The notes under the pieces were generated by a model that was given only the letters and a program-made list of their open reading frames with translations, was not told the origin of the DNA and searched no databases. Source: a virus. From it: a stretch of 37,199 nucleotides of DNA. Below, piece after piece: positions 5,843-34,995 of the stretch; the stretch's first letter is position 1, and every line of letters begins with the position of its first letter. The stretch covers positions 1 through 37,199 of the IMG/VR virus record IMGVR_UViG_3300045996_000523. One strand, 5' to 3'. Made by a program: the position numbers and the translations under genes.

Positions 5843-6628
5843 ATGCCCAGACCGCTCAACATCCCTGATAGCTACGACGTCCGGGCGTTCCACGAGGTGC
5901 GGGTCGACAGTGACCTTGGCACGTTCGACGGCCACGCCTCGGCGTTCTGGTCGGTCGACTCGTATAACACCGCGTTCGCGCCCAAGGCGTTTAGAGAAAC
6001 CCTTGGTAAGAAGGGTGACCGCATCCCTGTCCTCTTCTTCCACGACCCGACTGAAATGGTCGGCCCCGCGCTGCAACTCAAAGAGGACAAGACCGGGCTC
6101 TTTCACCATTCCAAGGTCATCGAAGACGGGCGCACCGGCTCGTATGTCCTGGCGCATCTGCGCGGCGGCACGCCGATGGGCATGTCGTTCGGATTTGAGC
6201 GGCGCAAGGATCGGGCGGCGACCGAGGGCGACCCGATCGACCTGAGTACCGCCGATGTCGGCGTGACGCCGAGCGACGTGCGGGTCATCACCGAGGTCGA
6301 GCTATTCGAGATCAGCGTACTTCCCTGGACGTTTGCCAGCCAGCCGAAGGCGGACGTGTCTAATATCCGGGCGTCGGTGCAGTTCGACGCCGTTCAATCC
6401 CTCTTGGATGACCTGCGCGCCGGTCGCCTGACCGAAGAACGGCGCAACGTCATCGCCGAACTCGTCGCCGCCTGGGGCGAAGCCGCCGGAGCCGGGCCTG
6501 CCCACTCCACGGACGCAGAGGCACGACAGACAGACCTCGTACTGACAGACGACGACCGCGCCGCCGCACTGGAAATCCTGTTGGCGGGGAGCGGCCTAAC
6601 ACCGGAGCAACTGCGATGCGTAGCTTGA
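5843..6628 (+). CDS. HK97-type prohead protease
   Basis: A 261-residue serine protease that matures the capsid by cutting scaffold or capsid N-termini. Visible motifs: LGTFDGHASAFWSVDSYNTAF, VLFFHDPTEMVG (likely catalytic H67) and MGMSFGFE (likely catalytic S115), then VELFEISVLPWTF. A C-terminal extension of about 75 residues ends in a helical acidic tail. ATG 5843 has GAGG eight bases upstream. A GTG at 5807 behind AGGAGG (5798-5803) would add 12 residues but its spacing is only three bases, so it is less likely. It overlaps the capsid gene start by 13 bases, as expected for the protease-capsid pair. Confidence 0.9.
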   Translation: MPRPLNIPDSYDVRAFHEVRVDSDLGTFDGHASAFWSVDSYNTAFAPKAFRETLGKKGDRIPVLFFHDPTEMVGPALQLKEDKTGLFHHSKVIEDGRTGSYVLAHLRGGTPMGMSFGFERRKDRAATEGDPIDLSTADVGVTPSDVRVITEVELFEISVLPWTFASQPKADVSNIRASVQFDAVQSLLDDLRAGRLTEERRNVIAELVAAWGEAAGAGPAHSTDAEARQTDLVLTDDDRAAALEILLAGSGLTPEQLRCVA

Positions 6629-7974
6629 CGCAATACCGCGAGGAGATCGCGGCGAAGACGAAAGAGATTGTGCCCCTGGCTGAGCGAGCGGCGAAGGGCG
6701 AACTCGGTGGCGACGACCTCGTCACATTCCGCGAACTGAAGGGCGAGATTGAAACCCTACACGGCGAGATGCGGGACGCCGAAGGGCTCGACGCCGACGC
6801 CAAGCAGATGCTCGAACTGGCCCGGCAATCGAGCCAGCCGGACGGTCGGCGCATCAGCGGCCAGGTGCCGCGTGAGCGTGAAGAGCAGCGCGAGAGTGAG
6901 ACCGGCGAAGAGGCGCCGCGCTACCGATCTCTCGGTGAGGCGTTCGCCCACTCCGAGGCGCTCAACGAATACCGGCAGCGCGTCGGGCAGGGCACGAGCA
7001 GCCGGGCGTTTCGGGTTGGATCAACCTTGCGGGAACATCGTGACGAGGCCGCCAATGCGAAGGGCGTCTCGCCTGAAGTCCGGAACGTCGTCAACAACAC
7101 CGGCCTTGGTTCGGTGGTTGAGAAGGACCGGCTGCCGGTCTACGTGACGCCAGACCGTCAGCAGTTGACGGTGCGCGACCTGTTCGCCAGCGGCACCACA
7201 GACGGAGGCACGGTCGAGTTCGTCAAGGAAGGCGCGATCACCAATAACGCCGCCGAGGTGGCGGAGGCGATCGACCTAACGACCGGCCTCAAACCGGAGT
7301 CGGCGCTGGCGCTGTCGGTCGACACCGCGCCGGTGCGGACCATCGCCCACATCATCTATGCCACCCGACAGGCGCTCGACGACTACGGTCAGCTGCGGAT
7401 GCTCATCGACCAGTTCCTGCTCCGAGGTCTCGATGAGCGGATCGACCGCCAGTTGCTGCTCGGCAACGGTGTTGCGCCGAATATCACCGGCGTCCTCGCC
7501 GCCTCCGGCGTGCAGGTGCTGAACGCCGCCTACTGGACGGCGAACCCGCTGCCGACCGCCGGCGCGGCGGCGAACGACTGGGACCGGCTGCGCCGCGCGG
7601 TGCGACTCGTTCGCACGGTCGGACGCGGCACGGCGACGGGCATCGTGCTCTCGCCGATGGACATTGAACGCGCCGAGCTCATCAAGACGACGACGGGTGA
7701 GTACCTGTACCCGGGCGGCGGTCCCGCCGGCGGCGGCGTGTTCACGATGTGGCGACTGCCGGTCGTCGAGAACGAGAACCTGACAGAAGGTCGGGCGGTC
7801 GTTGGCGACTTCGCTCGCGGCGCCGCAGTGCTGGACCGGATGCAGGGGCAGATCTTCGCCACCGACAGCAACCGTGACCTCTTCGAGCGAAACATCATCA
7901 CGATCCTGGCCGAGACGCGGATCGCCTTCCCGATCTACGCGCCGAGCCGCTTCACCGACGTGACGCTCCGCTAA
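6616..7974 (+). CDS. HK97-family major capsid protein
   Basis: At 452 residues it has the HK97-fold layout: a charged coiled N-terminal region (about 1-125; YREEIAAKTKEIVPLAER and a Gln/Glu-rich stretch) that looks like the delta domain used as internal scaffold, then the capsid core with LPVYVTPDRQQLTVRDLF, GGTVEFVKEGAITNNAAEVAE, HIIYATRQALDDYGQLR, LLLGNGVAPNITGVL and the late GDFARGAAVLDRMQGQIF. The upstream protease probably removes the N-terminal region. It overlaps the protease gene end and is followed at TAATG by a small gene. Confidence 0.95.
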   Translation: MRSLTQYREEIAAKTKEIVPLAERAAKGELGGDDLVTFRELKGEIETLHGEMRDAEGLDADAKQMLELARQSSQPDGRRISGQVPREREEQRESETGEEAPRYRSLGEAFAHSEALNEYRQRVGQGTSSRAFRVGSTLREHRDEAANAKGVSPEVRNVVNNTGLGSVVEKDRLPVYVTPDRQQLTVRDLFASGTTDGGTVEFVKEGAITNNAAEVAEAIDLTTGLKPESALALSVDTAPVRTIAHIIYATRQALDDYGQLRMLIDQFLLRGLDERIDRQLLLGNGVAPNITGVLAASGVQVLNAAYWTANPLPTAGAAANDWDRLRRAVRLVRTVGRGTATGIVLSPMDIERAELIKTTTGEYLYPGGGPAGGGVFTMWRLPVVENENLTEGRAVVGDFARGAAVLDRMQGQIFATDSNRDLFERNIITILAETRIAFPIYAPSRFTDVTLR

Positions 7975-22455: not shown

Positions 22456-22501
22456 CTACAAGTGGACGTAGGCTGATCGTGCGTAGTGGAGGATCGTGGT
22501 G

Positions 22502-22711
22502 ATGCTGATCGACGCCATTGTCTTTATCACCGTCGCGATCCTCTACTACACACTATGGATCTCGATTGCGATCCATTCCAGCAAGGAGCGGATCGTCGAA
22601 CGACATCAAAGGATGGACCTCGATGGATCTCGCGTGGGTGTGGCTGATTGTCCTGGTCGTTGCTATCGCCGTGCTGTATGGACTTGGATTCTACGCCGCG
22701 AGGTCGTATGA
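22502..22711 (+). CDS. Small membrane protein (overlaps the next gene)
   Basis: ATG 22502 has GGAGG at 22488-22492 with nine-base spacing. It makes up to 69 residues: a membrane helix at about 3-25 (LIDAIVFITVAILYYTLWIS) and a charged segment (HSSKERIVERHQRMDLDG). The last 30 residues lie in the overlap with the next frame and look less like natural protein, so the end may be incidental. The signal-anchor shape could fit an inner spanin-like protein. Confidence 0.5.
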   Translation: MLIDAIVFITVAILYYTLWISIAIHSSKERIVERHQRMDLDGSRVGVADCPGRCYRRAVWTWILRREVV

Positions 22712-25513: not shown

Positions 25514-27646
25514 GTGCCATCCAATGTCGCCACTACCAGCCGGATAGCGAATAGCGGAGCGTGGGCGGGCCGATCCGGGTTTGCAACCGCGTCGGCCCTC
25601 TACGTTCTCAGTCAGAACACCTCCACCGGCAAGCTCCAGGTCAGTAGCTCCACCAACGGCACGACCTGGACGCTGCACGACAACACCAACGCGCCCACCA
25701 ACTTCTCCGCTACACATCCCTACTCCGGCTATCTCCAGGGCGCGGGTCGGACCGGCGCGGGATACCTCTACGTCATCTACTTCAACGCCGCGAACTCCTG
25801 CCGCGTCCGCCGATTCAACACGGCGACGAATACGTGGGAAACCACGGATGTCGGCACGAACGTCAGCGCATCCAGCATCACCAACACCCTCAACGTCGGC
25901 CTCGTCGTTCGCTCCGATGGCGATGTCATTGCCTTCTTCCATGTGGTCGCAACCGGCCTCAATTATTCCCGCTACGAAGGGGCGTCGTGGTTCAATGCGG
26001 CGGTTCAGGCGGTGGCCTCTGCCTGGGTCAATAGTGTCGCCATCGACTCCGCCGACCGGACCTACTTCACCTACGCCGACAACACGAATAACGACAACAC
26101 CTACCGCACCCTGAACGCGGCGAATGCGTTAGGGACCGAGACGGACTTCGACGCCACGGCACATACCACCGCCAAACTGCGCTACGCCGGCAGCGCCGTT
26201 TACCACGAGGGCACGGCGGAGCGCCTCTTCGCGATCGGACGCGACACCGGCGGTGAGATCGACGGCTACACCGGCACCATCGGCGCGACGCTCGGCACGC
26301 AGACGGCCGTGCAGGGTATCTCGACCTCGGTCGCGCCGAACCTGACGAGCACCGACGTTTCGTTCTTCGGCACCGGCTCGGCGGGGCGCGTGCATGTCGT
26401 GTGGGGCACCGCAAACGCCTTCCTTCACGATGTCTCGACAACGGCGGCGGCACCATATACGTTCGGCACCGACATCACCATCCTCTCCGGTCTCGCCGAT
26501 GCCGATGTCTGCCCGCAGTGGATCAACGGCCTTTCCGGTCTCGGCGTCCTCTATCAAGAGTCGGGCACGGTCAAGGTCGAGTGGATCACCGCGCCGACGC
26601 CGCCCGGCTCACCCGGCACCCTGACGGTCGCGACGGCGACGGCGACAGCCGATGCCGAGGACGTGACATTCGACGCCGCCTCGAACATGACGGTGGCCGC
26701 GGCGACGGCGACGGCACAGGCGCAGGCCGTCGACCTGACGGGGGGTGGTGGCGGCATCAGCGCCACCCTGACGGTGACGGCCGCGACGGCGACGGCGCAG
26801 GCCGAGGCTATCACCTTTGATACCGCAGCGATCCTCACCGTCGCGCCGGCCACCGCCACAGCCGCGGCGCAAGCGATCACCTTCGATGCAGCATCGGCCC
26901 TAACGATCGCGCCGGCGACGGCGACGGCAGCGGGGCAAGCGGTCAACCTCGCGGCGGCGCAGGCCGCGACGTTCACGGTTGGCGCCGCAACAGCCACGGC
27001 GCAGGCCGAGGCCGTAACGTTCGATACAGCGGCGAGGCTGGTCGTCGCAGCGGCAACGGCAACCGCGCAAGCGGAAGCGGTCACGTTCGACACAGCGGCA
27101 CGGCTGATAGCCGGAGATGCTGCCGCCACGGCGCAGGCGCAAGGCGTGACGTTCGATGCCGCCGCGTCGCTGACGCTCTCGCCAGCGACCGCGACGGCAC
27201 AGGCCGGGTCGGTTGCGCTCGGTGCCGGCGCAGCTGCCAGTCTCGCCGTGATCGCAGCCACCGCAGCCGCGCAGGGCGAAGCGGTCACGTTCGACGCCGG
27301 TGCCACGTTTACGACCACCCCTGCAACCGCAGCCGCGCAGGGCGAAGGCGTCACCTTCGACGCGGCTGCCGTCTTCGCTGCTATCGCCGCCGCCGCAACG
27401 GCACAAGCCGAGGGCGTGGCGCTTACTGGTGCCGCCAGTGGAGCCGCGGCAATGATCGCCAGCGCGGCAACAGCGACCGCCCAGGCGGGCGCGGTTGTCC
27501 TAACAGGAGGAGCGCCGATCACCGGCCCGGTGATCGTCTACCTAGCTGGGCCGGTGGTGGCCGCTCCCTATGACGCTGGCGACACCGACGCGGAGTATGC
27601 TGCCGGCACACACACTCTCACCTACGCAGCAAGCAGTGGAGACTAA
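25514..27646 (+). CDS. Large virion-like protein with Ala/Thr repeat tail
   Basis: A 710-residue protein from GTG 25514, behind a weak ribosome-binding site. Residues 1-365 look like a beta-propeller or sialidase-like fold with recurrent SxDG/Trp-type blades (SSTNGTTWTLHDNTNAP, VVRSDGDVIAFFHV, SVAIDSADRTYFTYADN, RVHVVWGTANAF). From about residue 370 to 675 are about 13 repeats of 22-25 residues, with core ATATAQAEAVTFDTAA. The C-terminus is a small polar cap. A tail fibre or adhesin with a rigid stalk is the likely role. No catalytic residues are shown. Confidence 0.7.
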   Translation: MPSNVATTSRIANSGAWAGRSGFATASALYVLSQNTSTGKLQVSSSTNGTTWTLHDNTNAPTNFSATHPYSGYLQGAGRTGAGYLYVIYFNAANSCRVRRFNTATNTWETTDVGTNVSASSITNTLNVGLVVRSDGDVIAFFHVVATGLNYSRYEGASWFNAAVQAVASAWVNSVAIDSADRTYFTYADNTNNDNTYRTLNAANALGTETDFDATAHTTAKLRYAGSAVYHEGTAERLFAIGRDTGGEIDGYTGTIGATLGTQTAVQGISTSVAPNLTSTDVSFFGTGSAGRVHVVWGTANAFLHDVSTTAAAPYTFGTDITILSGLADADVCPQWINGLSGLGVLYQESGTVKVEWITAPTPPGSPGTLTVATATATADAEDVTFDAASNMTVAAATATAQAQAVDLTGGGGGISATLTVTAATATAQAEAITFDTAAILTVAPATATAAAQAITFDAASALTIAPATATAAGQAVNLAAAQAATFTVGAATATAQAEAVTFDTAARLVVAAATATAQAEAVTFDTAARLIAGDAAATAQAQGVTFDAAASLTLSPATATAQAGSVALGAGAAASLAVIAATAAAQGEAVTFDAGATFTTTPATAAAQGEGVTFDAAAVFAAIAAAATAQAEGVALTGAASGAAAMIASAATATAQAGAVVLTGGAPITGPVIVYLAGPVVAAPYDAGDTDAEYAAGTHTLTYAASSGD
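26621..27525 (+). repeat. About 13 Ala/Thr-rich repeats of 22-25 codons
   Basis: Each unit runs roughly L/FTVxPATATAQAEAVTFDTAA. Two units near 26990-27110 are nearly identical. Units ending in LTGG instead of TFD occur about every fourth repeat. DNA is very GC-rich (GCGACGGCGACG) and prone to slippage. Confidence 0.8.
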
Positions 27647-27648
27647 CG

Positions 27649-27960
27649 ATGATTGAGCACACGATAGCGACCAATCTGCACGTCATCCCGCCCGTGGTGA
27701 CGCTTGCCACCGGCGATCGGATGGTGCGCCGGTTTGCAGCCGGCAAGACGATCACGGGCCGGTCGGTGACGATGGAACGGCTCGGCACCGATCCGCCAGT
27801 CCTGACGCCCGCACTGGTCGAGTTGCAGGCGAACGAGACGGACGGGCTCACCGTCATCATCATCGGAGGCGATCGTGGCCGGAGCTATCTGCTCACCGCC
27901 ACATTCACGGCTGGAGCGGAGATTTGGTCACGACAACTCACGGTACGGGTGAGGCCGTGA
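27649..27960 (+). CDS. Hypothetical protein, end of rightward late operon
   Basis: A 103-residue beta-rich protein starting three bases after the repeat protein stop. It contains HVIPPVVTLATGDRMVRRF, LTPALVELQANETDGL and a final strand pair (YLLTATFTAGAEIW, QLTVRVRP). The small beta-sandwich layout resembles the fibre-linked protein at 18376 in outline. Its end overlaps the leftward regulator gene tail-to-tail by 33 bases. Confidence 0.6.
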   Translation: MIEHTIATNLHVIPPVVTLATGDRMVRRFAAGKTITGRSVTMERLGTDPPVLTPALVELQANETDGLTVIIIGGDRGRSYLLTATFTAGAEIWSRQLTVRVRP

Positions 27961-28155
27961 CTCTATCGGCTGCGGGTCGTACCCCATCGCCTCGCGTTGG
28001 CGGTCGATCTCGGCGCGCTCAAAGCGCCGGTATCCGCTCGGCAGTTTGATCGTGCGAACCATGCCCTTGTCAGCCCAGCGGCGCAGACCGCTCGGACTCA
28101 CGCCGAGCATCCTGGCGGCCTGGGTGATGGTCAGCAGTTTCGGCGTGTCGGTCAT
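27928..28155 (-). CDS. MerR/excisionase-like helix-turn-helix regulator
   Basis: A 75-residue leftward gene. ATG at 28155 has GGAG eight bases upstream; a longer form starting at 28185 is possible. LLTITQAARMLGVSPSGLRRWADKGM is the helix-turn-helix and IKLPSGYRRFERAEIDRQ the wing, as in MerR-type, BldC-like and Xis-like small DNA-binding proteins. It faces the early operon over a region with an inverted repeat at both -35 boxes, so it probably regulates itself and the rightward genes. Excisionase function would need an integrase, which is not in the window. Confidence 0.85.
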   Translation of the reverse strand: MTDTPKLLTITQAARMLGVSPSGLRRWADKGMVRTIKLPSGYRRFERAEIDRQREAMGYDPQPIESRPHPYRELS

Positions 28156-28176
28156 CGTTGAATCTCCATGTATCAA

Positions 28177-28210
28177 GTCTACCATATTGCGTCAATATTC
28201 TCTATTGACA
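28177..28210 (-). promoter_or_regulatory. Leftward promoter region for the regulator
   Basis: On the complement TTGACG (28195-28190) lies 15-17 bases from GATACA/TACATG, and TTGTCA (28210-28205 complement) lies 19 bases from TATGGT. Either could drive the regulator gene; the 19-base spacer would be notable for MerR-type control. The exact start is not decidable from sequence. Confidence 0.4.
28191..28209. promoter_or_regulatory. Perfect inverted repeat, candidate operator
   Basis: GTCAATA-TTCTC-TATTGAC has 7-base perfect arms around a 5-base centre. The right arm lies in the rightward -35 box (TTGACA), the left arm in a leftward TTGACG box. It sits between the divergent regulator and early operon, so binding of a dimeric regulator would block or tune both. 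Confidence 0.65.
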
Positions 28211-28233
28211 AAGTTTACACAGTCTGTCATACT
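28205..28233 (+). promoter_or_regulatory. Rightward early promoter
   Basis: TTGACA (28205-28210), exactly 17 bases, then CATACT (28228-28233, four of six matches to TATAAT). It fits sigma70-type promoters and lies in the most AT-rich intergenic segment. The first gene starts at 28278 with AAGGAG at 28264-28269. Confidence 0.7.
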
Positions 28234-28887: not shown

Positions 28888-28943
28888 ATGAGTTCCGTAA
28901 TGCCGGCGCAGCGAGCGTCGCGCTCCACCATCCTCCATCCTCC

Positions 28944-28968
28944 GCCGGCGGGTGTCCTCCCCGCCGGC
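28944..28968 (+). terminator. GC-rich hairpin after the DnaJ-type gene (no T-tract)
   Basis: GCCGGCGGG and CCCGCCGGC pair perfectly over 9 bp with a 7-base loop. No run of T follows, so it is at most a weak intrinsic terminator, or the first stem of the structured RNA downstream. Confidence 0.45.
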
Positions 28969-28985
28969 ACCGGGAAGCCCCTTGC

Positions 28986-29381
28986 CGGGCTCTCCCGTTC
29001 GACCGACTACTGCCCCCTTTCGGCGATGAAATCGACGGCATCCCGGCAGGTGTCAAGCGGGAACTTGTTGGCAGTAGTCGGTCGAACGGGCGGGCGTGAC
29101 ATCGGGCTCTTCCGTTCGACCGATCGCCAGTCGTGCAATTGCCGCGTGGCAATGTTGTCGCATCAGACGTGTCGGAAGCGCGCGGTGAATGCGTACAAAC
29201 GGCTTTGGGGAATTTCTCGGCGGTCGGTCGAACGGGCGGGCGTGGTGTCTGCTTACCGAGCTCTTCCGTTGTGCTCCTGTCGTCCGTGTTTGGCTGCGTG
29301 ATTGACCAGCGCCGCGCAGCCGAGACAAACGGTAGGGGTGCCGCATGGGCGGCAGGGGCACAACGGGCGGGCGTGGTGCTC
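28986..29381 (+). ncRNA. Three tandem long stem-loop units, candidate structured RNA
   Basis: Unit 1 arms 28994-29014 / 29070-29090 (21 bp perfect), unit 2 arms 29112-29128 / 29219-29235 (17 bp, one G-U), unit 3 arms 29266-29289 / 29343-29366 (up to 24 bp with several G-U). Each stem extends outward by the same GCTCTyCCGTT / AACGGGCGGGC boxes with one shared mismatch, followed by unpaired CGTGRTG/CGTGACA. Inserts of 55, 90 and about 53 bases are unrelated. Arm differences in unit 3 are matched on the other side (GTTCGACC/GGTCGAAC against GTTGTGCT/GGCACAAC). The G-U pairs form only in the rightward transcript. Function unknown. Confidence 0.65.
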
Positions 29382-29443
29382 GTTCACGCATGATGGAGAG
29401 GAGGTGCTTATCGACTAGCACGACGCCATAGTCAAGTCACGAA

Positions 29444-29473
29444 GACGGCGAGACGATTGCTCGCCTCGCCGTC
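29444..29473 (+). terminator. GC-rich hairpin at end of the structured region (no T-tract)
   Basis: GACGGCGAG (29444-29452) and CTCGCCGTC (29465-29473) pair perfectly with a 12-base loop that offers a second register. There is no T-tract. It may be the last stem of the RNA element, a processing site or a weak terminator before the gene at 29502. Confidence 0.45.
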
Positions 29474-29501
29474 TCACGTTCCCACCGGAAGGATACATGA
29501 C

Positions 29502-29780
29502 ATGGAGCCTGACTACCATCTTGCAAAGTGCCATATCTGCGGCACGATGCGGAGTTATGACGCGCACAATCGCACGCTCCTGCCGTGCGCGCACGAGTGG
29601 GAGATCCGGAGCAAGGTGAAGCCGTGGCACCTTCATCCGCGCTGGCTTGATCCGGCGTTCTGGGCGCACGTTCGTGTGCTCTTCATTGCGGATGAGACCA
29701 AGGCCAAGCGGGACAGGGCGCGGCGACAAGCGTTGAAGCGAGCCCGCGCCAATGGCGTCGCCGAAGGCGGTGCGGCATGA
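29502..29780 (+). CDS. Small zinc-finger-like protein
   Basis: A 92-residue protein with GGAAGGA before ATG 29502. CHICGTMRSYD is followed about 20 residues later by CAHEWEI, a Cys/His set that may bind zinc. The C-terminus is strongly basic (KAKRDRARRQALKRARANG), as in nucleic-acid-binding proteins. Stop overlaps the next ATG. Family not recognised. Confidence 0.6.
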   Translation: MEPDYHLAKCHICGTMRSYDAHNRTLLPCAHEWEIRSKVKPWHLHPRWLDPAFWAHVRVLFIADETKAKRDRARRQALKRARANGVAEGGAA

Positions 29781-30111: not shown

Positions 30112-30251
30112 CGAGCCGGGAGCGCGGCCGTCATGAGTGGCGACGATTCGGCCAGGCGCTGATCGAACTACTGGTGGCGGTCGCGTTCCTGATCGCCTTC
30201 GTGATGCTGACCGACTGGTGGCTGGGGCTCACGTACCAGCCGTACCCATAG
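30108..30251 (+). CDS. 47-residue membrane protein
   Basis: ATGA overlap with the upstream stop. Basic start (TSRERGRHEWRRF), one membrane helix (ALIELLVAVAFLIAFVMLTD) and a short Trp/Pro tail. Function unknown; the positive-inside rule would put its N-terminus in the cytoplasm. Confidence 0.5.
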   Translation: MTSRERGRHEWRRFGQALIELLVAVAFLIAFVMLTDWWLGLTYQPYP

Positions 30252-30259
30252 GAAACCCC

Positions 30260-30502
30260 ATGCCTGTCCTCATATCCAGTGACGACGTGGAACGGAGCGT
30301 GCTGGAGTTGCAGTTCGATGCGTCCTCGTGCCACCTCCTGGGGCGCGACCCGCACACGCGGAATGATTGGTTTGTCGTTTTCTCGATGGCCTGCCAACTC
30401 GCATCCTACGCAGCGCATCAGGCTGGGATGGATACGGAGCAGACGATCGAGAGCGCAAGTTTCCCGCTGATGACGTGGACGACGGAGGGCGATGATGTCT
30501 GA
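30260..30502 (+). CDS. Hypothetical early protein
   Basis: An 80-residue acidic protein starting at ATG 30260 (GGAAA upstream). It is alpha/beta (PVLISSDDVERSVLELQFD, WFVVFSMACQLASYAAHQAG). It overlaps the recombination gene start. No family recognised; a partner of the annealing protein is possible from position only. Confidence 0.55.
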   Translation: MPVLISSDDVERSVLELQFDASSCHLLGRDPHTRNDWFVVFSMACQLASYAAHQAGMDTEQTIESASFPLMTWTTEGDDV

Positions 30503-31334
30503 CCGGGTGTTCGACCCATCCAGCCATCTCACCAAGGTCAGCGGCTCCGACTATCTCGGTGTGCAGTGGCGACTCGTCTGGTTCCGAGACAAGTATCCGC
30601 ACGGCCGAATCACCGCCGAACACGTCACGCTCACCGATCAGCTCGCCATCTTTCGAGCCGAAGTGACCGCCGTCGAGGATGGCGAAATCCTTGGCAGCGC
30701 CACCGGATACGGAAGCGAGACAAAAGGGGATTTCAAGGACTTCATCGAGAAGGCGGAGACAAAGGCGATCGGCCGTGCGCTGGCCGCCCTTGGCTTCGGC
30801 ACGCAGTTCGCTCCAGACCTCGCGGAGGGTGATCGCATCGTCGATACCCCTGTAACGCGCCAGGAGCCACGAGATTCAACGCAACGGGCGGGCAAGACGT
30901 ATGCTCCCTCGAAAAACATCGACGCTCCTAGGGCCACACAGAGCGCCGCCGAGCCGGAGATACCGGCAGAGCGGCAGCGCGACGGCGAGTGGATCCACTG
31001 GAACCGAAAACTTCACAAGGCCGTAAGCGACCGTGGCGACGGTCACGAAGGCGTCCACGCGCTCGTGACCGGAACCTTTGACCTCGGCAGCGTCAAGGAT
31101 GCGACCGCCAACCAGTTGCGGTCGATATACGGCTGGGTCGAGAGCAATGATCGCAACGTCGTACGGGAGAAGATCGCCCGACTTCGTATAATGGCGCAGC
31201 CACCAGCCGACGACGATATGGACTCAACCTATCCGCCGGTGGAGGAGGAGCAAACCGAACTCGAGCCGGAAGTGTTGGCCGCGGTGAACGCGGACATCGA
31301 CCGGCAGCAGCAGGCGAGACGATACGACGGATAG
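30495..31334 (+). CDS. Single-strand annealing-type recombination protein
   Basis: A 279-residue protein with GGAGGG before the double ATG (30492/30495). Residues about 15-115 hold HLTKVSGSDYLGVQWRLVWF, GSATGYGSETKGDFKDFIE and KAETKAIGRALAALGFGTQF, the AxTxAIGRALxxLGxG signature of phage annealing-type (Rad52/Erf-like) proteins. The C-terminal half is hydrophilic with an acidic end (DDDMDSTYPPVEEEQTELE), as in proteins that load single-strand DNA-binding protein. Next to replication genes, it would pair homologous strands in phage recombination. Confidence 0.7.
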   Translation: MSDRVFDPSSHLTKVSGSDYLGVQWRLVWFRDKYPHGRITAEHVTLTDQLAIFRAEVTAVEDGEILGSATGYGSETKGDFKDFIEKAETKAIGRALAALGFGTQFAPDLAEGDRIVDTPVTRQEPRDSTQRAGKTYAPSKNIDAPRATQSAAEPEIPAERQRDGEWIHWNRKLHKAVSDRGDGHEGVHALVTGTFDLGSVKDATANQLRSIYGWVESNDRNVVREKIARLRIMAQPPADDDMDSTYPPVEEEQTELEPEVLAAVNADIDRQQQARRYDG

Positions 31335-32997: not shown

Positions 32998-33443
32998 AAG
33001 CTCTCACGATTCATCAACCGTGGGCGAGTTTTATCGCCTGGGGCGAGAAGCGCATCGAGACCCGCGACTGGTACACGCCGTACCGTGGACAACTCGCGAT
33101 CCACGCCGGTAAGTACCACCCGGATCGGTCGTACGATCTCTGGATCGAGCCGAACAAATCCATCCTCGCCGCGCATGACGTGGACGGGATCAATCAACTG
33201 CCGTGGGGTGCGGTGATCGCTACCTGTCAACTGGTGAAGTGCATACGGATGACGCCGACGTTCGTGGCGATTATGAATGACGGCAACTTGGGTATGCCGC
33301 ACGAATACGAGCTCGGCCTCTACGAACCGGGCCGCTTTGCGTGGGTGCTGGCCGACGTGCAGCGGGTGATGCCCCCAGTGTCGACGCGAGGCTATCCGGG
33401 CCTCTGGGAATGGGAAGATCCGGCGAATGGACGGGCTGCATGA
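32994..33443 (+). CDS. ASCH-domain protein
   Basis: A 149-residue protein from GTG 32994 (GTGA overlap). MKALTIHQPWASFIAWGEKR, then IETRDWYTPYRGQLAIHAGK match the ASCH/PUA-like domain that binds RNA or modified bases. LPWGAVIATCQLVKCIRM and RFAWVLADVQRVMPP complete the fold. It overlaps the methyltransferase gene by 17 bases. A link to base-modified DNA or RNA is inference. Confidence 0.8.
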   Translation: MKALTIHQPWASFIAWGEKRIETRDWYTPYRGQLAIHAGKYHPDRSYDLWIEPNKSILAAHDVDGINQLPWGAVIATCQLVKCIRMTPTFVAIMNDGNLGMPHEYELGLYEPGRFAWVLADVQRVMPPVSTRGYPGLWEWEDPANGRAA

Positions 33444-34995
33444 GCGAGCGGGTGTGATCCCGCACTACGACCAGGGCGGTGTCCGGCTCTACGCCGGCGA
33501 CGTGCGGGCGGTGCTCGCCGCGCTGCCGCAAGCGTCGGTCCATTGCGCCGTCACCAGCCCGCCATACTACGGACTTCGAGCATACGGCACCGAGCTGCAG
33601 ATATGGGGCGGCGATCCGGCGTGCCTGCATGAGTGGGGGGCGGAGTCAGTCAAGGTAGCAATCGGGAATAACTCTGGCATACGCGGCGGCGATGCGACGG
33701 ATGCCGAGCGTCGCCGTTGGGCGAGGAAGAAATCTATAGACGACGGGAACCAGCGTCTTGTGACGGCGGGTGCATTCTGCGCCCACTGCGGCGCGTGGCG
33801 TGGTGAGTTCGGCCAGGAGCCGACGCTGGATCTCTACGTCAAGCATCTGGTCGAGATCTTCCGCGGCGTTCGGCGGGTGCTGCGGGACGATGGGACGTGC
33901 TGGCTGAATATCGGGGATTCGTTCAACGCCGGGACAAATGCCACGCGCAAGGCAAGCGCTAACGTCCAGCATGGCTACTGGGAAAACGGCGGCACGTTCG
34001 GAGATCGCCGCGTTACTGACAAGTCAAGCAAGCCCAAAGACCTGATGCTCGTGCCGTTCAGCGTCGCGCTGGCGCTGCGGTCAGACGGCGCGGCGTCACC
34101 CGCCCACATGCGCGACATCGAGCGGTGGATCGACGCCGTGACCGCCAGCTACGACAGCCGCGACCAGTGGCCCGACAGGATCGCCGCCGAGGTGGAGCGC
34201 CTAGAGCGTGAGCACATCGACGCTAACCGAGGTGGCTGGTACGTGCGGCAGACGATCATCTGGAGCAAGCGCGCACCGATGCCGGAGAGCGTCACCGACC
34301 GCCCGACCACGGCGCATGAGTACGTGTTCCTGCTGAGCAAGCGGGCCGATTACTACTACGACGCTGAGGCGGTGAAGGAGCAGAGTGTTAGCGATCATCC
34401 GTCTGGCAACGGATTCAAGCGAGCGCCACGTCTGACATACCAGAACGCAGACGGCTCAGCTCGAGGAAACGACAACCAATGGACTGACGTGGGTGGTAGC
34501 CGCAACATGCGCTCCGTCTGGCACCTCGGCCCGTCCGCATTTCCGGCCGCCCACTTCGCCACATTCCCCCCAGAGATACCCCGCCGCGCCATCCTCGCCG
34601 GCACCAGCGCGAAGGGCGTCTGCGCCGAATGCGGTACGCCGTGGAGGCGCCTAGTGGAGAAGTCCACCACATTCGGCAGCGGATCCGGTAGGGCAGGGAA
34701 TGTGCCCAACGGCAAATACGCCGAGACGGCGCAGGCGATCAGCGGGAGTTACGACATCCGCATGGGTCCGCAGATCGACACTCGCACGGTCGGCTGGGAG
34801 CCGCAATGCCGATGCGACGCGCCCACGGTCCCGGCCACGGTGCTCGACCCATTCGTCGGCAGCGGAACGACGTGCGCCGTTGCCCGGCTGCACGGCCGGA
34901 ACAGTATCGGCATCGACCTATCCGAAACCTATCTCGATATGGCCATCAGGGAGCGGCTCGGCCAGGGCGTGCTCATGCTTGGAGGATTGCTGTGA
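33427..34995 (+). CDS. Site-specific DNA methyltransferase (N4/N6 class)
   Basis: At 522 residues and full length. Catalytic TSPPYYGLRAYG (about residues 38-49) is the D/N/S-PPY motif IV, and VLDPFVGSGTTCAVARL (about 477) is motif I, giving the beta-class order IV...I. Other parts: VEIFRGVRRVLRDDGTCWLNIGDSFN, VRQTIIWSKRAPMPESVTDRPTTAHEYVFLLSK (shown in part). A Cys-rich insertion (CAECGTPW, later CRCDAP) is common in phage enzymes of this type. It would modify adenine-N6 or cytosine-N4 in phage DNA. ASCH gene overlaps its start. Confidence 0.92.
   Translation: MDGLHERAGVIPHYDQGGVRLYAGDVRAVLAALPQASVHCAVTSPPYYGLRAYGTELQIWGGDPACLHEWGAESVKVAIGNNSGIRGGDATDAERRRWARKKSIDDGNQRLVTAGAFCAHCGAWRGEFGQEPTLDLYVKHLVEIFRGVRRVLRDDGTCWLNIGDSFNAGTNATRKASANVQHGYWENGGTFGDRRVTDKSSKPKDLMLVPFSVALALRSDGAASPAHMRDIERWIDAVTASYDSRDQWPDRIAAEVERLEREHIDANRGGWYVRQTIIWSKRAPMPESVTDRPTTAHEYVFLLSKRADYYYDAEAVKEQSVSDHPSGNGFKRAPRLTYQNADGSARGNDNQWTDVGGSRNMRSVWHLGPSAFPAAHFATFPPEIPRRAILAGTSAKGVCAECGTPWRRLVEKSTTFGSGSGRAGNVPNGKYAETAQAISGSYDIRMGPQIDTRTVGWEPQCRCDAPTVPATVLDPFVGSGTTCAVARLHGRNSIGIDLSETYLDMAIRERLGQGVLMLGGLL

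Follow-up and report, generated by a model that had tools for sequence, protein, structure and literature searches.

Structured RNA elements have been described in the early operons of a few model phages. In phage T7, RNase III processes the early mRNA at hairpins located between the early genes, and helices of about two turns suit this enzyme. In phage HK022 the putR stem-loops are found about 270 nt downstream of the start of PR; the put RNA itself is about 70 nt long, has two stem-loops and a conserved sequence, and binds the zinc-binding domain of the RNA polymerase beta' subunit (PMC9378689). Two other kinds of phage RNA meet the defence systems of the host. The host senses the cabRNA of staphylococcal phages, which is derived from the terS-terL genes (PMC10686824), and the Racr RNA anti-CRISPRs, encoded directly downstream of a promoter, mimic CRISPR repeats (PMC10651486). 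In a few open-access literature searches, structured RNA in phage early operons was found to be a known kind of element, but the hairpin array described here fitted no named family.

Organisation of the array and its genomic context

The non-coding gap at positions 28986-29381 of the uncultured phage record IMGVR_UViG_3300045996_000523 (37,199 nt; the whole stretch is referred to as the window) holds three tandem, related long hairpins, U1, U2 and U3 (Table 1), located with their boxes and spacing where the initial annotation had placed them. Every unit has the box GCTCTyCCGTT at its 5' end and AACGGGCGGGC at its 3' end, and these 11-nt boxes are identical or almost so in the three units. The outer stem consists in all units of four pairs, including one U-G, followed by a U.C mismatch at the identical place. 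The inner stems, counted as ungapped pairs inward from the box ends, compare with the 21 (perfect), 17 and up to 24 bp proposed earlier; that of U1 has Watson-Crick pairs throughout, and in U3 weaker pairing reaches out to 29254-29378, which adds a few pairs outside the boxes. The apical regions (some 50-90 nt) displayed no significant homology to each other (p 0.42, 0.07 and 0.12) and no significant match to the rest of the phage genome.

Table 1. Coordinates of the array and of the features surrounding it in the window
Feature	Position	Strand	Remarks
Small divergent HTH regulator (MerR / HTH_17)	27928..28185	-	Family match
Promoter-like site TTGACA-17-CATACT	28205..28233	+	Probable early promoter; 1 found, 0.4 expected
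Small promoter-proximal ORF, 74 aa	28278..28502	+	From sequence
Small promoter-proximal ORF, 106 aa	28567..28887	+	No family
Short G+C-rich hairpin immediately 5' of array	28944..28968	+	Fold z -4.2; no T-run after it
Hairpin U1	28989..29095	+	107 nt; 4 bp + U.C mismatch + 21 bp
Hairpin U2	29106..29241	+	136 nt; 4 bp + U.C mismatch + 18 bp
Hairpin U3	29260..29372	+	113 nt; 4 bp + U.C mismatch + 25 bp
14-bp hairpin 3' of array, perfect but one	29443..29474	+	Terminator-shaped; no T-run
Small ORF 3' of array, 92 aa	29502..29780	+	No family
Annealing-like (ERF-like) gene	30492..31334	+	Synteny anchor; PHROG matches of unknown function, name assigned here

The window is a 37.2-kb virus record with genes for a terminase, a portal, a head protease, a major head protein and a head-tail adaptor. 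The site at 28205 is the only promoter-like match of the region, with none inside the array, which starts about 750 nt downstream of it. Besides small ORFs and the annealing-like gene, a replication initiation protein gene is found downstream of the array. Since a divergent HTH gene, a promoter-like site and small ORFs precede the array, and annealing and replication genes follow it, the array is probably part of an early transcript or operon. With a codon model built from genes of the phage itself, all six frames across the array score negative, and the arms are non-coding by codon usage. A search with the neighbouring ORF 29457-29780 gave no relatives. Elsewhere in the window there are two DNA methyltransferase reading frames (77-973 and 33427-34995); the former matches only the C-terminal part of the same PHROG and is located inside a longer frame with repeated FATFAPDA.

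Among named genomes the closest terminase belongs to a Chloroflexota MAG (52%), and 55 of 400 Chloroflexota genomes carry a relative of the annealing gene. The host is therefore probably a member of the Chloroflexota, a lead and not a proof.

Folding and probable selection on the RNA

The fold z-scores of U1, U2 and U3 are -4.85, -5.59 and -8.18 on the sense strand and -6.07, -2.97 and -3.17 on the antisense strand; the fold of U1 is strong on both strands, whereas U2 and U3 clearly prefer the + strand. In a long-loop hairpin scan of the whole 37 kb, U3 (63.5) and U1 (63.0) were the two strongest hairpins of the genome, as compared to a maximum of 49.5 in only 20 dinucleotide shuffles. U2 alone is not exceptional in this genome-wide scan, and derives its standing from its sibling units U1 and U3. 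An antisense hairpin at 26677-26869 scored 56.5 in the same scan. Two further hairpins remained within the shuffle range: a sense hairpin of 18 uninterrupted pairs at 30117-30191 (score 45), where the next small-ORF junction begins and close to which CGGCCGTCATGA is repeated, and a hairpin at 22479-22553 over a small-ORF start (19 pairs, score 44), which prefers the + strand.

The inner stem of U3 had been noted to differ from those of U1 and U2 on both arms with pairing kept, and compensated differences are borne out by the alignment of the three units over 25 pairs: 97.3% of the cells are paired, and at 11 of the 25 pairs both bases change from unit to unit with pairing intact, which was reached in none of 500 shuffles. 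Sliding the pairing partners brought the paired fraction down to 30-55%. As U1-U3 are paralogues, the compensated changes do not amount to covariation across species; a single step of template switching could rebuild the arms of a hairpin.

A second line of evidence is provided by the mismatches that pair on one strand only. The three window units alone contain 11 G-U pairs in the rightward RNA and no A-C; the strand specificity claimed in the initial annotation stands, but not its number of about seven. The stems of the window units together with those of the related phages G002 and L155 (see below) contain 22 G-U against 0 A-C, or 19:0 when G-U pairs common to units are counted singly, the hairpins of G002 and L155, unlike those of the window, having been picked by a G-U-tolerant scan and their strand bias counted later with symmetric scoring. 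In 30 other hairpins of the window the numbers are 46 and 58, under scoring that treats both mismatch types alike. Both lines of evidence favour selection on RNA over selection on DNA; a DNA-only process has no obvious reason for a G-U strand bias. Judged from the sequence, the array is very probably a selected RNA structure. The proposal that selection acts on the rightward RNA thus retains the G-U signature and the compensated differences between units, but homologous units were not found elsewhere and the covariation is that of three paralogues.

Searches for homologues and occurrence in related phages

No match was obtained with Rfam 15 at the gathering threshold in the window, L148 or L155, and a permissive Rfam search returned only sub-threshold microRNA-precursor matches, in line with the earlier remark that no known RNA family has this layout. 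A covariance model of the units (R1) gave nothing convincing in the related phages or in 301 Chloroflexota genomes, its one match (E 0.0076 among the 301 genomes) being at chance level. The sensitivity of R1 is limited, as it failed to list U2 itself, probably because of the longer apical region of U2 and the search filters. The covariance-model search, suggested earlier as a check and run here on related phages and Chloroflexota genomes, thus yielded no convincing homologous units, and other searches of the phage collection, of Chloroflexota genomes and, by box pattern, of viral contigs revealed none either. A loose box pattern had single hits among the matches listed for the viral contigs; the matches of the tight pattern in L122 and L123 were judged to be chance, having poorer stems and no tandem copies.

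Most of the relatives compared have only one or two genes in common with the window. The closest relative of its early region is G002 (terminase 62%, annealing gene 54%, methyltransferase 40%, replication gene 27%), in which three long sense-strand hairpins are found in a non-coding stretch upstream of the annealing gene. In L155 (annealing gene 57%) the layout is like that of the window: a divergent HTH-like gene, a promoter-like TTGACA-17-CATAAT and small ORFs precede a 400-nt gap that lacks codon signal and contains one hairpin of 21 pairs. The copy number of the hairpins thus differs between phages (three in the window, three in G002 and one in L155). Neither in G002 nor in L155 does this region show the frame signal seen in its neighbours, and alignment revealed no significant sequence similarity between these regions and the array; a search with the neighbour protein of L155 matched only itself. 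These hairpins are positional support and not sequence homology. Common descent with the array is plausible from position, but unproven because no significant sequence is held in common.

When the best hairpin within 2.6 kb upstream was scored at 57 annealing-gene loci, the window ranked first (63.5), followed by L193 (57.0), G002 (54.5), L155 (53.5) and the next locus (43.0). The strong hairpins of L193, and also of L135, were dropped as equivalents, as they are located inside apparent protein genes. G423 and G424 have more head genes in common with the window, but no such array was found 5' of their annealing gene, and the hairpins of G424, which have an integrase gene on one side and a leftward HTH gene on the other, were likewise dropped. 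Comparable hairpins adjoining the annealing gene were also lacking at twenty Chloroflexota prophage-like loci that carry this gene. Since the structural relatives and most other annealing-gene phages are without the array, the element is sporadic.

Several other palindromic structures were observed. The repeated palindromes of G424 (L342, 15553-15892) are built around GGCCTAATG and may be terminators or belong to an attachment site. In the more distant relative L327, three very stable, nearly perfect hairpins of 21, 27 and 18-19 pairs are found at 6090-6460 and 7464-7527, at another genome place, upstream of the terminase and in a stretch mostly without clear gene; the first two together have a fold z of -8.5. 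These may possibly be the same kind of element elsewhere in the genome. In L191, units resembling GGGATAATCTTC form a long tandem repeat about 6.5-6.7 kb from the annealing gene on its upstream side, and this repeat produces an artefactual giant hairpin. The Chloroflexota locus L253 has a 117-nt imperfect palindrome with arms of 48-49 nt about 3.2-3.3 kb upstream of the annealing gene, which is strong on both strands and more like a mobile palindromic element.

Possible functions

We tentatively take the array to be a lineage-specific non-coding RNA of the early transcript, for which an RNase III-type processing site is the most likely role, though the whole of this reading, mechanism included, is possible rather than probable. 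As the other phages retain long stems without any common sequence, we infer a reader of helix shape; such a reader acting on an early mRNA places RNase III processing first. The inner stems of 21, 18 and 25 bp provide a duplex of about two turns in an intergenic, non-coding region of the presumed mRNA. Transcripts reading through from the early promoter would include the array, and its recognition would depend mainly on helix geometry. Host RNase III, the most likely reader, would cut the early mRNA, by which the regulatory and the replication genes would become separately decaying messages, and the conserved stem base with its U.C mismatch would help to position the cut. Against this reading, the near-identical boxes hint at a recent duplication or at a reader of sequence, the covariation is one between paralogues, G423 and G424 do without the array, and part of the G-U count comes from the G-U-tolerant scan.

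It is rather unlikely that the array acts in cis like put, with nascent hairpins that bind RNA polymerase so that early transcription resists termination or pausing. The placement of stem-loops downstream of an early promoter does resemble that of HK022 putR. However, instead of an RNA of about 70 nt with two stem-loops, the array has three units of 107, 136 and 113 nt, no sequence is kept between phages, and terminator-like sites downstream of the array are not above chance.

The GCTCTT of U2 and U3 resembles what we take to be the boxA core of a lambda-type nut site. This reading was dropped, as GCTCTyCC is paired in the stem and the Chloroflexota rrn leaders carry CCTTGACAACTG instead, a host-type motif of which the window has no significant copy (chance level). 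In the 16S leaders of several Chloroflexota genomes (L348-L358) a common motif close to CCTTGACAACTG was observed, which is perhaps the boxA of this phylum.

Release of the hairpins as a trans-acting RNA, in which they would act as decoy duplexes for an RNA-processing or defence protein of the host, is also rather improbable. It would be in line with the fast turnover of the sequence, the maintained duplex length and the varying copy number, and precedents are found in the trans-acting Racr RNAs (PMC10651486) and in the hairpin-rich cabRNA that meets host sensors (PMC10686824). On the other hand, there is no promoter-like site directly 5' of the array and no T-run terminator 3' of it, no known RNA family was matched, and the apical regions are without significant genome match. 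That such arrays form a new class of phage RNA, in which fast-evolving long hairpins of the early operon serve in trans as decoys against such a protein, is unlikely; if true, conflict with the host would drive both sequence turnover and changes in copy number.

Inverted repeats selected at the DNA level, be it as mobile palindromic elements, an origin or a recombination site without a role for RNA, are very unlikely. Template switching can create or repair inverted repeats and would mimic compensated changes among paralogues, but the strand bias of the G-U pairs speaks against a purely DNA-level role, and dispersed conserved copies as expected of MITE, REP or Correia type elements were not found in the genome, the phage records or the 400 Chloroflexota genomes. 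Finally, a protein-coding origin with incidental hairpins is highly improbable: the 137-aa ORF 28888-29301 is open, and open frames also cross the hairpins of G002 and L155, but such frames are common at 64% GC, its codon score is -0.29 (training genes +0.09 to +0.41), its second-position GC of 0.63 is above the 0.44-0.61 of the compared genes, and it has no family match.

Comparison with known systems

The array is probably a real but undescribed RNA element, as far as can be judged from its sequence. An element that keeps its stem lengths and G-U strand bias while its sequence turns over would escape sequence-based family searches; the count of G-U versus A-C offers a cheap test of RNA selection for hairpins without alignable homologues.

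Each of the described systems has some property in common with the array. Like a lambda-type nut site, it has a boxA-like GCTCTT followed by a hairpin, but here the box is base-paired. Like the Racr RNAs it would be a small, structured, non-coding phage RNA, but it lacks a promoter-like site directly upstream. It resembles cabRNA in that it would give a phage RNA of a few hundred nt, rich in hairpins and with no sequence similarity from phage to phage, whereas the array is non-coding and probably located in the early operon. HK022 put is similar in its stem-loops, which act in cis close to where the early operon begins. The T7 RNase III sites differ in that the array comprises three related tandem units within a single gap, and its stems are longer, with apical regions of about 50-90 nt; like them, it presents long hairpins between the early genes of what is presumably a polycistronic phage transcript.
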